Shown one piece after another: positions 59,863-64,000 of a stretch of DNA of 64,000 bases (position 1 is the first letter of the stretch; every line of letters begins with the position of its first letter). This stretch comes from Vicingaceae bacterium (lineage in GTDB: Bacteria > Bacteroidota > Bacteroidia > Flavobacteriales_E > Vicingaceae), in assembly GCA_028336925.1 (NCBI GenBank), contig JAOKVV010000006.1:1-64000 (forward strand), written 5' to 3'. Both the position numbers and the translations under genes were made by a program. The notes below the pieces were generated by a model. The model did not search any database and had not been told where the DNA came from. It was given only the letters and a program-made list of their open reading frames with translations.

Positions 59863-59870
59863 TAACTTTG
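59863..59870 (+). promoter_or_regulatory. -7 box of the copper-locus first gene
   Basis: TAACTTTG matches TAnnTTTG and ends 4 bases before the ATG at 59875. It suggests a nearly leaderless transcript, and no clear -33 box was found. If real, it drives the peptide/barrel/MbnP/MbnH genes. Confidence 0.45.
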
Positions 59871-59874
59871 ATTC

Positions 59875-60261
59875 ATGTTAAAAGTACACCAAATATTATC
59901 TATAGTTATAATATTACCGCTGTTTTTAGTGGGTACTTTTCATTATTCCTTTGTCTCTATAAATTTCCAGTTAAATAGAGAATACATCACTCAACAGTTT
60001 TGTATAAATAAAGACAAACCTGAATTAGCTTGCGGCGGTCAGTGCCATTTTATGAAACAAATGTCTGACTTAAAAGAGGCAGACGAAGAACGCACCGGTG
60101 ATCAAGAAACAAGTCAAGATGAGCGACCAACAAATTTGTTCTTCGCTTCCCCATTAAGCGATTATATCAATACTTCTTCCATAAAATTAAACTATCCGGT
60201 AGTTTCCAATACCATCAATGATGGATTTATTCAATTAGTAAAAGCCCCACCACAAGCATAG
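59875..60261 (+). CDS. Small membrane-anchored Cys-motif protein
   Basis: A 128-residue protein with a hydrophobic N-terminal segment (about residues 7-24) and a conserved-looking motif FCINKDKPELACGGQCHF (Cys43, Cys53, Cys57: C-X9-C-X3-C). The acidic stretch SDLKEADEERTGDQETSQDE follows. Similar short proteins occur upstream of metal-uptake or copper-related genes in Bacteroidota, and the cysteines could bind a metal; this is inference. It is the first gene of a four-gene locus, 14 bases before the beta-barrel gene. Confidence 0.6.
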   Translation: MLKVHQILSIVIILPLFLVGTFHYSFVSINFQLNREYITQQFCINKDKPELACGGQCHFMKQMSDLKEADEERTGDQETSQDERPTNLFFASPLSDYINTSSIKLNYPVVSNTINDGFIQLVKAPPQA

Positions 60262-60275
60262 TAAACTATTCGTGT

Positions 60276-61320
60276 TTGCCAAAATTAGTTTGGCTTATTT
60301 ATTTATCACAAGATTTTACTTTTATATTAGTTAAGAAACAGCTTAGGTTGTGGCTCTTAGGAATATTGAGTGCATTAAGCATCAACTCCTACGCCTGCGA
60401 TTTATGCAACATCTATGTAGGAATTAGACCAGATGATTATCAAAGCTCCTTTGGAATAGTTCATCGTTTTAGATCATTTGATTCTGATTTTTTGGCCACG
60501 ATTCCAGGGGCTAGTCAAGAGAAACACGGTGAAGAATTTGCCCTTGAAGATTATAGTCTACAAGAAGAATTTAACAGCTATGATTTTTGGTTTAGGTATT
60601 TTTTGACACCTCGTTTACAACTTAATGCGTCTATTTCGTTTTCAGATAACTACATGGGTAGAAATGACAGTATGACGCAATCGATAGCAGGCCAAGGAGA
60701 TTTGATTCTAATGGCTAAATATCAGATATACAACAGTAAATTGTGCGAAGATACAAGTGAATGGACTAAACGGTTAACTGCAGGAGGAGGTATTAAATTG
60801 CCGACAGGTACTTACAATAAAAACCTATATGTATTACCCAATTAAATCAAATACAAAAGGTGTTTATTACAGTGATCCTGAGAACCATCTTGACCCTCAC
60901 ATGCAGGCAGGAACAGGTAGTGTTGATTTTATCTTATTTCTAGAAGGTGTTCTGATGAGAAATTATTTTGGAGTAAGCACAAATTTGAATTATAAAATAA
61001 ACTCCAGAAATAAAAATAATTTCAAGTTTGCCAACCGTTTCAATTTAAATCCGTCTATCTTCTTTATAAAAGATTTGAATAAGGTGAAAATAATGCCAAC
61101 TATAGGTGCTGCCTATGAAAGTAGCAACAGAGATCAATGGAATGGTGATTTTTACAGACACTCAGGAGGTGAAACACTATTTGGTAATGCAAGCTTAACC
61201 GCTTTTTATGATAAAATTTCGATTGGTATGACCTACTTCAATCCAATATATCAAAACTTAAATGACAATCAAATTCAGAACAAGATGCGATTGTTAACAG
61301 AATTAAATTATTATTTTTAA
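60276..61320 (+). pseudogene. Outer-membrane beta-barrel protein with frameshift
   Basis: Two overlapping ORFs (60276-60845 and 60829-61320) together encode one 347-residue beta-barrel protein. The first part has a signal segment ending SINSYACDLCNIYVG and strands such as GQGDLILMAKYQIY, breaking after LPTGTYNKNLYV; the second continues with DPHMQAGTGSVDFILFLEG and ends in an aromatic residue (NYYF). The break lies at a run of five A at 60819-60823. Losing one A joins the frames and restores continuous barrel strands. The start, nominally TTG at 60276, is uncertain since no ATG precedes the signal segment. It may be a phase-variable gene, a recent pseudogene, or a sequencing error. Confidence 0.7.
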
Positions 61321-61342
61321 CATACTTAATACAATCTATATT

Positions 61343-62143
61343 ATGAAAACATTTTTTAAAACCATGTTCATAACTGCTACAATAGGTTTAGCAGTATCAT
61401 TAAATGCATGCGACACAGATGATGACGATGACATCACAACTCCAGTATTTCCGAGTCAAAGTGTTGGAATTAACTTTATGCACCTTTCAGGGGCGGACAC
61501 TATTGAACTAAACACTTCAAACAGACCTTACACCAATGCATTAGGTCAACAATATAATGTAACCAAATTACGCTACCTTATTTCTAATGTTACGCTACAT
61601 CAAGTAAATGGTGTAAATATTGAATTAGATGAATACTTTTTTGTTGACATTTCAAAACCTGAAACATTTAGTTTTACCGGTTCTAGAATGATTCCACAGG
61701 GAACTTACAGTGGTATATCTTACACCTTTGGCTTTGATGAAAATGATAATACGGATGGCATTTACACAGATTTGAATGTAGCTAACTGGAATTGGCCAAG
61801 CCCGATAGGCGGAGGTTATCATTTTATGCAATTAGAAGGTAGATATATTGATTCTAACTCAGCTGATCAGTTTTTTGCAACGCACATGGGTACCGCAAGA
61901 AAAATTGATTCAACAGGAACTACTTTTGAAGCGAACCACTTTACGGTTATGATACCAAATTCAGGTTTTGTAGTAGGTAACAATAATATTGAACTTGAAT
62001 TTACTATGAATATCAATGAATGGTACACCAACCCTGTTAATTGGGATTTTAATGTTTATGGCGCAGGAATTATGCCGAACTACAACGCTCAAAAATTGTT
62101 AAATACCAACGGTAAAGATATCTTTACTGTAAGAATAAAATAG
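61343..62143 (+). CDS. MbnP-family copper-binding lipoprotein
   Basis: A 266-residue lipoprotein with lipobox SLNAC at residue 23 followed by DTDDDDD, an acidic tail after the Cys typical of surface-exposed Bacteroidota lipoproteins. The body matches the MbnP family: GQQYNVTKLRYLISNV, VDISKPETFSFTG, NWNWPSPIGGGYHFMQLEGRY and MNINEWY. Known MbnP proteins bind Cu(I), with a Trp oxidised to kynurenine by the partner MbnH. A conserved Trp is present in the NWNWP segment, but which Trp is modified cannot be told here. It sits directly upstream of the MbnH-like gene. Confidence 0.78.
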   Translation: MKTFFKTMFITATIGLAVSLNACDTDDDDDITTPVFPSQSVGINFMHLSGADTIELNTSNRPYTNALGQQYNVTKLRYLISNVTLHQVNGVNIELDEYFFVDISKPETFSFTGSRMIPQGTYSGISYTFGFDENDNTDGIYTDLNVANWNWPSPIGGGYHFMQLEGRYIDSNSADQFFATHMGTARKIDSTGTTFEANHFTVMIPNSGFVVGNNNIELEFTMNINEWYTNPVNWDFNVYGAGIMPNYNAQKLLNTNGKDIFTVRIK

Positions 62144-62149
62144 TATGAA

Positions 62150-62178
62150 GTAGGCTATAGAATTGTACTATAGCCTAC
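62150..62178. other. Intercistronic hairpin between mbnP- and mbnH-like genes
   Basis: GTAGGCTATAG (62150-62160) and CTATAGCCTAC (62168-62178) are perfect complements with a 7-base loop. No strong T-run follows. Located between the two copper genes, it could shape differential mRNA stability or partial termination. Confidence 0.5.
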
Positions 62179-62199
62179 TCTATCATTAAATTTAAAACA

Positions 62200-63333
62200 A
62201 TGAGAAAAGATAATTCACTTATAATTGTATTTATTGTTTTTAGTAGCATGCTAACACTCGTAGCTTGTGTTGATGATGATCCTATAAAGCCGGTACATTG
62301 CGAAAACTGTCCAAGTGAAAACTATCCGACTCCATACTCGTTAAAGCTTCCTCCATTATTTGCAAGTCAGACGGCACCACTAAATATTCCTGCGGATAAT
62401 CCGCTTACCGTGGAAGGAATTGCTTTAGGAAAAAAGTTATTTTTTGAAAAACGATTATCTATTAACAATACGATATCTTGCGCAAGTTGCCACCAACCCG
62501 AAAATTCATTTAATGATCGCGGCAAATCATTTAGTTTAGGCGCTATTGGACAGCCGGGTCATATAAATGCAATGCCTTTAGTAAATTTAATTTATGCTGA
62601 TAGGTTTAATTGGGACGGTTCCGCCAAGTCTTTAGAAGAACAAGCGCTTATACCGGTGGCACACCCATTAGAAATGATGGAGAAGTGGGTTGATGTTGCT
62701 ATAAAAATTCAAGCAGACCCAATGTATGTGTTAGATTTTGGTAAAGCTTTCCCGAATGAATCAATTGATTCAACGACTATAACTAAAGCATTGGCTCAAT
62801 TTGAGCGCACATTGGTTTCAGGAAACTCTCCTGCTGATAATTATTTCGGTGCTGAGGTAGGAATCGTTCCTCAAGGAAGGGTTTTAACTGCGGAAGAAAT
62901 CAGGGGTTTCGAGGTGTTTGATGATCCCGACAGAGGTGATTGTGGGCACTGTCATGGTGGTCAATACAATCCTAATTGGACTGATTATACCTTTAGAAAC
63001 AATGGTTTAGATTTAAATCCTGACTCCGGATTAGCAAAAGTTACGAAAAAGCCTTTTGACGTGGGCAAGTTTAAAGTTCCAAGCTTAAGAAATTTGAAAT
63101 ATACGGCTCCTTACATGCACGATGGAAGATTCAACACTTTAGAAGAGGTTGTTCAGTTTTACATGGATGGTGTAGAGCCTAACTCAACTAACATAAGCGT
63201 TGACATGTTTCATAGGACAGGTGCTAATGGGCACACTATAGCTTTAACTCTACAAGAAAAATCAGATTTAGTTGCATTTTTGAAAGCACTCACGGATGAA
63301 GAATTTGTAACCAATCCGAATTTCAGACCTTAA
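62200..63333 (+). CDS. MbnH/MauG-like diheme cytochrome c peroxidase
   Basis: A 377-residue lipoprotein (lipobox LVAC at about residue 23, followed by VDDDP). It carries two c-type heme motifs, CASCHQ (about 95-100) and CGHCHG (about 249-254), and the family segments LFFEKRLSINNTISCASCH, FERTLVSGNSPADNYF, and APYMHDGRFNTLEEVVQFY. This fits the MauG/BCCP superfamily, of which MbnH modifies MbnP. The adjacency to an MbnP homolog supports that role. Classical bacterial cytochrome c peroxidase is the alternative. It is the last gene of the locus. Confidence 0.82.
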   Translation: MRKDNSLIIVFIVFSSMLTLVACVDDDPIKPVHCENCPSENYPTPYSLKLPPLFASQTAPLNIPADNPLTVEGIALGKKLFFEKRLSINNTISCASCHQPENSFNDRGKSFSLGAIGQPGHINAMPLVNLIYADRFNWDGSAKSLEEQALIPVAHPLEMMEKWVDVAIKIQADPMYVLDFGKAFPNESIDSTTITKALAQFERTLVSGNSPADNYFGAEVGIVPQGRVLTAEEIRGFEVFDDPDRGDCGHCHGGQYNPNWTDYTFRNNGLDLNPDSGLAKVTKKPFDVGKFKVPSLRNLKYTAPYMHDGRFNTLEEVVQFYMDGVEPNSTNISVDMFHRTGANGHTIALTLQEKSDLVAFLKALTDEEFVTNPNFRP

Positions 63334-63349
63334 GAAATGGAAAAATCAA

Positions 63350-63373
63350 AGAGGACTATTTGGTTAGTCCTCT
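63350..63373. terminator. Convergent terminator
   Basis: AGAGGACTA (63350-63358) pairs with TAGTCCTCT (63365-63373) around a 6-base loop, overlapping the stop codon of the minus-strand gene. A T-rich stretch follows on the minus strand. It could end both the copper locus and the minus-strand gene. Confidence 0.65.
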
Positions 63374-64000
63374 CTATATTCATGATACTTAGACACATTT
63401 TCCACATGCGTCATTCCATTTTCTTCCATTATGTTTAATGGCATTTTTTCGCCATTTACCAAACGGTAGCATTTCAATTTATCCTTAAATACAGACGACT
63501 TGTAAACACTTTTACCTAAAAGCATGCGCACACACTCTTGAATACCTTCCACTATGGATGGATGTGGATGAATCATGTGTGCTAACTCATCAATTCCCTT
63601 ACCCATATACATTAGAAGAGCAACTCCTTGAATCGCACTTGAGGCATGCTCACCAACTGCTCGCATACCTAGAACTTTCATTTCTTCATCATCTGAAACT
63701 ATAATTTTGAAGAAACCATTGGTCTTTCTCATAGCAATAGCTCTTGCTATGGTTGAATAATCTACTTTGGATACTCTAATTGGAATATTTTGCTCCACTG
63801 CCTGTTGTACATTAATCCCAACAGCGGCAACCTCAGGATTTAAAAACATAATGGTGGATATATTTGAATATCTGATCGGCTTAACCGGAAAGTCAGCAAA
63901 CATCTTAACAACAGCATGTCTAGCCTCTCGCTCACCAATATTTACTAATGCCATATTTCCAGAAACATCTCCTACCGCGTAAATATGAGATATGTTGGTT
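63364..64000 (-). CDS. Pyridine-nucleotide disulfide oxidoreductase, C-terminal part (partial)
   Basis: The frame is open to the right end of the window, so the gene continues beyond it. Visible is TNISHIYAVGDVSGNMALVN (the FAD-binding GD motif) and the dimerisation domain to the end with HPHPSIVEGIQECVRM, the His-Glu pair of the family. The C-terminal continuation KSVYKSSVFKDKLKCYRL favours a dihydrolipoamide-dehydrogenase- or SthA-like enzyme, but the redox-active CXXXXC lies outside. It is the last gene of the window, convergent with the copper locus. Confidence 0.85.
   Translation of the reverse strand, partial: TNISHIYAVGDVSGNMALVNIGEREARHAVVKMFADFPVKPIRYSNISTIMFLNPEVAAVGINVQQAVEQNIPIRVSKVDYSTIARAIAMRKTNGFFKIIVSDDEEMKVLGMRAVGEHASSAIQGVALLMYMGKGIDELAHMIHPHPSIVEGIQECVRMLLGKSVYKSSVFKDKLKCYRLVNGEKMPLNIMEENGMTHVENVSKYHEYRED

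Follow-up and report, generated by a model that had tools for sequence, protein, structure and literature searches.

A putative copper-sensing leader heading a barrel–MbnP–MbnH gene cluster in the Bacteroidota

Experimental work on CruR in Bordetella showed that this leader senses copper via a CXXC motif, arrests at RAPP and controls the genes downstream of it (PMC9426467, PMC12992588). CutF combines a CxxxC motif with a Pro-rich end and a stem-loop, and in a 2023 count CutF-like proteins in Bacteroidota made up 40% of the normalised set (PMC9973294). MbnP and MbnH form a protein pair that is conserved far beyond the producers of methanobactin, as already stated in 2013 (Kenney & Rosenzweig, PMC3621798), so that the pair away from methanobactin genes is not the novelty for which an earlier reading of our locus (the original prediction) took it. 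Here we analyse a 64,000-nucleotide (nt) stretch of a Vicingaceae genome (contig JAOKVV010000006.1 of assembly GCA_028336925.1, positions 1 to 64,000), referred to as the window, in which positions 59875-63333 encode a 128-amino-acid (aa) Cys-motif protein (the leader), an outer-membrane beta-barrel, MbnP and MbnH. From the sequence we think it on balance probable that these genes form one operon for outer-membrane copper acquisition or handling that is switched by its own first gene, a nascent-chain leader responding to copper with the same sign as CruR.

As the original prediction had it, the four genes are collinear with short gaps; all lie on the + strand, and their order recurs in relatives. 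The locus has the following features.

59863..59870, + strand: Bacteroidota -7 promoter box TAACTTTG (TAnnTTTG), ending 4 nt ahead of the leader ATG at 59875
59875..60261, + strand: leader gene, 128 aa, CutF/CruR-like, with an N-terminal hydrophobic segment, FCINKDKPELACGGQCHF and a C-terminal KAPPQA
60001-60003, + strand: codon of the third invariant Cys, Cys43, an alignment column
60031..60045, + strand: C-x-G-x-C codons, putative metal site (Cys53, Gly55, Cys57), invariant columns
60241..60252, + strand: Lys-Ala-Pro-Pro codons, putative arrest motif, two residues ahead of the stop
60262..60323, + strand: leader-barrel intergenic region, 62 nt, containing a terminator-like hairpin at 60278-60294
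60324..61320, + strand: outer-membrane beta-barrel gene with CDLC after the signal peptide; a one-base frameshift interrupts it near 60818, and the aligned start reads ATA
61343..62143, + strand: MbnP-like lipoprotein, 266 aa, PF20243, with a WNW motif at residues 149-151
62149..62179, + strand: perfect 12-bp hairpin in the gap from mbnP to mbnH, z score -4.3
62200..63333, + strand: MbnH-like di-haem enzyme with a lipoprotein-type N-terminus, 377 aa, two CXXCH motifs and Tyr321 at the axial-ligand position
63347..63376, no strand assigned: hairpin where the MbnH gene converges with a disulfide-reductase gene, the likely operon end

Members of the leader family share an N-terminal hydrophobic segment, the pattern FC-x-NK...C-x-G-x-CHL, a divergent stretch and a terminal Pro-Pro, and in an alignment of 26 of them C43, N45, C53, G55, C57, P125 and P126 are invariant. 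CxGxC is present in 110/112 members, and Pro-Pro lies at most nine residues from the stop in 111 of the 112 (exactly nine at locus L160; the sole exception is a broken copy). Among control open reading frames (ORFs) from the same loci, Pro-Pro falls within the last eight residues in only 3/546 long and 7/279 short ones. CxGxC and Pro-Pro lie 66.0 +/- 2.0 residues apart (n=110), separated by a stretch that is itself divergent. The residue preceding Pro-Pro is mostly His, Pro or Arg, FHPP being the commonest ending of the family. We rejected assignment of the leader to DUF2946, or to any known NCBIfam family, because no Pfam or NCBIfam family matches it; none of the 26 leaders matches DUF2946 (PF11162) at an expectation value (E) of 10 or below, and this domain scores above cut-off in just one of 100 related genomes, away from any leader. 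Nor do the features by which CruR is recognised (CXXC, RAPP and about 45 residues) describe the family, which has CxGxC, KAPP or FHPP and 66 residues instead. The window leader does fall within the working definition of CutF-like proteins, which filters for fewer than 150 aa, Pro-Pro in the last 15 residues, an N-terminal signal and a co-directional gene within 1000 nt (PMC9973294): it has 128 aa, Pro-Pro two residues before the stop, a 62-nt gap and an N-terminal signal, the last judged by hydropathy only.

Because of its C-terminal Pro-Pro, fixed spacing and position at the head of the operon, we read the small protein as a leader of the CruR/CutF type, more likely regulatory than the structural partner that the original prediction had seen in it. 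An exported, membrane-anchored metal-binding protein, either a chaperone for copper or a thiol protein of the periplasm, that passes copper to or from the barrel and MbnP would account for several of the same observations: the invariant CxGxC and third Cys could bind Cu(I), the small protein is co-conserved with a module whose barrels also carry an N-terminal CDxC, and it diverges from its nearest relative as any translated gene would (nonsynonymous divergence, dN, 0.30 against a synonymous divergence, dS, of 2.0, which is saturated). The Pro-Pro would then be incidental, or a feature of stability or export. Such a protein, however, has no need of a Pro-Pro fixed before the stop and 66 residues from the Cys motif with a near-free middle, the leader is the first gene ahead of quite different downstream genes, and CutF, which is laid out in the same way, is broken down in vivo and cannot be detected there (PMC9973294). 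We regard the chaperone explanation as unlikely.

The spread of the leader was followed in samples of two depths. It occurs in 105/198 genomes of a class sample not chosen by MbnP and in 44/118 genomes of a phylum sample. Behind 47 of the 85 class-sample leaders, a barrel, MbnP and/or MbnH lies within four genes downstream; where other first genes follow (n=42), these include a TonB plug (19/42) or a YtkA-like protein (12/42), and the second genes include TonB receptors and PepSY_TM. On a Hymenobacter tibetensis plasmid the leader precedes a TonB receptor and PepSY, which is the cruR-crtA-crpH gene order, and on a Spirosoma oryzicola plasmid it is followed by an unknown lipoprotein, SCO1/SenC and PepSY. 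The gaps between leader and next gene are short, with a median of 75 nt. Judged by sequence and neighbourhood, the leader is a large, unnamed and uncurated Bacteroidota family, present at the head of copper-type operons in roughly half of the class genomes sampled.

Two further arrangements recur in these collections. The leader is followed by a lipoprotein of ~270-300 aa (of the YtkA type by family counts) and a TonB receptor of ~660-680 aa at L099, L102, L108, L113, L121, L124, L133, L143, L147, L164 and L173, which makes this a candidate for another Bacteroidota copper uptake operon. In leader operons outside the window's family, a protein of ~130 aa (DUF4625/Ig-like by family counts) is often found 3' of the barrel, as at L115, L129, L131, L136, L156, L167 and L168.

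Conservation of the whole module was evaluated by two retrievals. When 100 related genomes were searched by MbnP, the order leader-barrel-MbnP-MbnH appeared at well over a dozen loci, and other loci had leader-MbnP-MbnH without the barrel. Retrieval from named genomes by the barrel pattern gave 12 loci, all in Flavobacteriales or Bacteroidia and one of them in the cultured Acidiluteibacter ferrifornacis S-15; MbnP and MbnH were present in 12/12 and the leader in 11/11 of those with enough upstream DNA. The recurrence of this order across family and class is more than chance. Lack of conservation of the barrel and small protein had been named in the original prediction as a result that would count against it, and we find both conserved with MbnP and MbnH across family and class. 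At one locus of a family member (L051, 3495-5700) the leader and barrel are both degraded, as if lost together, and MbnP and MbnH are intact.

The MbnP of the window matches PF20243 with E 2e-28 (100 bits against a cut-off of 27) and falls below the curated cut-off of the equivalog TIGR04052 (MbnP_like_WxW; 23.1 vs 140 bits). Its WxW pair is conserved in the operon homologues, W149 in 35/35 and W151 in 34/35. A profile search of PDB sequences with MbnP gave no match; only the fold search did, and at E<=0.001 the predicted fold matched a single protein in the PDB, namely Methylosinus trichosporium MbnP (7L6G), all six chains of which gave E values from 2e-7 to 3e-6, with a template modelling score of about 0.5. 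MbnH matches CCP_MauG with E 8e-52 and TIGR04039, 'MbnH family di-heme enzyme', with E 2e-75, again below the curated cut-off (253.7 < 362.85). Both CXXCH motifs (residues 94-98 and 248-252) are invariant among the MbnH of the operon homologues, and Tyr321 aligns with a Tyr of 6E1C and with the axial Met of the peroxidase 3O5C. Among solved structures the closest relative is 6E1C, which bears the title 'Di-heme enzyme' and which we take to be M. trichosporium MbnH. Kynurenine formation in MbnP was reportedly described in a 2021 study, and MbnH in one from 2019.

The same genome holds a second MbnP/MbnH locus (L003, 2793-5872 on contig C35), in which two genes for MauG-like di-haem proteins lie behind MbnP. 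The C-terminal tail of this second MbnP is of the type IX secretion kind, and leader and barrel are absent nearby.

The barrel was assessed on its nearest intact homologue, for which an outer-membrane barrel is predicted with a predicted local distance difference test score of 83. The closest folds are FapF (5O65) and the COG4313 channels (4RL8), the N-terminal half of the window barrel gives a weak PF13557 match, and the barrels, past their signal peptide, start with CDxC. We predict a COG4313/MetA-type outer-membrane channel.

Copper is the metal that these partners suggest. Iron, zinc or nickel would be an alternative, as would an MbnP/MbnH pair that makes some other Trp-derived group and has no metal role; MbnP is far under the TIGR04052 cut-off (23 vs 140), and CutF-like leaders are not all of copper type in the CutF survey (PMC9973294). 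Set against this, YtkA, SCO1/SenC, PepSY_TM and MbnP recur behind the leader, and the fold match of MbnP, 7L6G, is a copper protein, which leaves another metal or none quite improbable. The claim that the locus lacks methanobactin genes was borne out to the extent that the MbnB family (PF05114) has no match in the whole assembly, which is 70% complete; a search for pmoA/amoA also gave no match, and its controls gave none either. A haem-copper oxidase is encoded in the genome and is a plausible copper client. The copper-acquisition reading of the original prediction fits the presence of MbnP and MbnH beside an outer-membrane barrel where methanobactin genes are lacking.

The position of the promoter suggests how the leader is expressed. 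At 58/102 leader loci an in-frame start follows the end of a -7 box by 2-10 nt, compared with 36/871 control genes; a sigma-70 promoter scan was uninformative, as expected for Bacteroidota. At probable promoters of Flavobacterium johnsoniae, transcription starts 4-5 nt past the -7 box, and most transcripts of that organism have leaders over 10 nt (PMC6847099). Taken with the box position, this start spacing indicates that, unlike most, the mRNAs headed by the leader should begin at or beside its start codon. The phylum lacks Shine-Dalgarno sequences, and structure near start codons tunes initiation (PMC6847099).

The most reasonable explanation, in our view, is a switch that follows CruR logic. 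The leader would be translated at the Sec translocon, and the ribosome would slow or stop at x-P-P just ahead of the stop codon. The ~66 residues between Pro-Pro and the Cys motif roughly match the ribosome tunnel plus translocon, so that the motif would emerge at the periplasmic exit and could bind copper there. When copper is low, the paused ribosome would persist and prevent pairing or termination of the RNA around the leader stop, allowing the barrel, MbnP and MbnH to be made; copper on the nascent Cys motif would release the arrest and shut off the downstream genes. Since both belong to known families, MbnH would be expected to oxidise a Trp of MbnP to give a Cu(I) site and the barrel to serve as a channel across the outer membrane.

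The main rival is the opposite, CutF-like sign, in which copper would make the pause stronger and so induce the operon, MbnP, MbnH and the barrel then protecting against or sequestering excess copper. The CxxxC of CutF has the cysteine spacing of CxGxC, and CutF has a short-gap stem-loop and is copper-induced (PMC9973294); gaps in the leader family are likewise short (median 75 nt), and the leader stop region pairs into the gap. The genes downstream, however, namely TonB receptors, PepSY, SCO and MbnP/MbnH, resemble genes for acquisition or assembly. Copper shuts off cruR-crtA-crpH, a characterised operon with the same gene order, and CorA/MopE with di-haem partners are copper-repressed. We consider the CutF sign rather unlikely and retain the CruR sign.

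The RNA step was evaluated by the pairing of the leader stop region (-12 to +12) with the following gap. Family-wide, 9.8 pairs were observed vs 5.4 in shuffled sequences (P = 3e-8); control gaps gave 5.1 vs 5.4. We therefore regard pairing or attenuation at the leader stop as a trend of the family rather than a finding at the window locus. In relatives the mbnP-mbnH gap has a mean z score of -4.2, with 94% below -2 vs shuffles; this hairpin may fix how much MbnP is made relative to MbnH, or shield the ends of mRNAs.

Several observations weigh against a leader-switched copper operon at this locus. The arrest motif is KAPP here and mostly FHPP in the family, not RAPP or RGPP. The length of tunnel plus translocon behind the 66-residue argument is a matter of general knowledge and leaves slack. 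Genes with no evident copper link follow some members of the leader family. The leader-barrel gap of the window itself folds no better than shuffles (z +0.27), so the RNA part of the mechanism rests on the family average. Finally, a frameshift of one base splits the barrel gene within a run of A near 60818 (60815-60824), and the aligned start codon of this gene at 60324 is ATA; relatives have a single ATG-started ORF, mostly of 327-351 aa. Of the copper-type module in the original prediction, the MbnP/MbnH pair is real, conserved and beside an outer-membrane barrel, but the barrel is not a single ORF in the window. The frameshift and missing ATG might mean that the module is decaying in this strain and that the barrel is a pseudogene, as at L051, where leader and barrel are both broken. 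Single-base errors are nevertheless common in fragmented assemblies such as this one, which is 70% complete, and each half of the barrel shares 79% identity with the nearest relative, dN/dS being ~0.07-0.08 (dS saturated), and has no further stops, which argues for a lesion that is recent or an assembly error. We consider decay rather unlikely.

A broader proposal can be put more tentatively. It is possible, though we would stop short of calling it probable, that the leader represents a metal-sensing nascent-chain family typical of Bacteroidota, showing no detectable similarity to DUF2946 and started near-leaderless with no Shine-Dalgarno sequence, that keeps its Cys motif roughly a tunnel plus a translocon away from the arrest site, thereby reads periplasmic copper while the chain is still ribosome-bound, and controls a barrel-MbnP-MbnH uptake module. 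Copper acquisition in Bacteroidota is poorly known, and a 2025 survey restricted to RAPP/RGPP arrest peptides found copper-related upstream ORFs missing from the phylum (PMC12992588), a gap that a leader family with FHPP-type ends would fill. In the openly accessible literature that we searched, we found no description of the leader family, the 66-residue rule, the near-leaderless start or the tie of this family to barrel-MbnP-MbnH. CxGxC, 66 residues and Pro-Pro together provide a sequence handle for copper operons across the phylum, the leader family would place MbnP/MbnH and a new barrel under the control of copper, and its fixed spacing makes a directly testable prediction of where the nascent chain senses metal.

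The system most like this one is CruR-CrtA-CrpH of Bordetella pertussis, whose leader belongs to DUF2946 (PMC9426467, PMC12914433, PMC12992588). Both leaders are the first gene of a copper-acquisition operon (putatively so here) and have an N-terminal export signal, a Cys pair, an x-P-P at the C-terminus with only a few residues left to the stop, and a fixed Cys-to-Pro-Pro spacing; MbnPH-like genes occur in some CruR operons too, and the Hymenobacter leader precedes a TonB receptor and PepSY as CruR does. They differ in that our leader has CxGxC with a third Cys rather than CXXC, FHPP, PPP or KAPP rather than RAPP, 66 rather than 45 residues between the motifs, gaps with a median of 75 rather than 162 nt, a start that adjoins the -7 box, and no DUF2946 match. 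With CutF-CutO-CutG of Rhodobacter capsulatus the leader shares the CxxxC spacing, Pro-rich C-terminus, signal sequence and short-gap stem-loop, and the CutF-like list includes many Bacteroidota proteins (PMC9973294). CutF is assigned to DUF2946, which the window family does not match, and is a copper-on switch of a multicopper oxidase; operons of MbnP, MbnH and a barrel have no mention in the accessible part of that paper.

Like MbnP and MbnH of M. trichosporium (7L6G, 6E1C; PMC3621798), the window pair has adjacent genes, the MbnP fold with WxW and a di-haem enzyme whose axial position is taken by Tyr, but it occurs without methanobactin genes, scores below the NCBIfam equivalog cut-offs and comes together with a COG4313-type barrel and a leader. 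In methanotrophs, CorA/CorB and MopE/SACCP (PMC3912023) also pair a copper-repressed surface copper protein, in which Trp is converted to kynurenine, with a di-haem peroxidase-like partner; the fold search with the window MbnP matches 7L6G, not CorA or MopE. The barrel, in turn, shares its predicted fold with COG4313/MetA-type channels (4RL8) and FapF (5O65) and differs from them in its N-terminal CDxC and in its position inside a copper-type operon.

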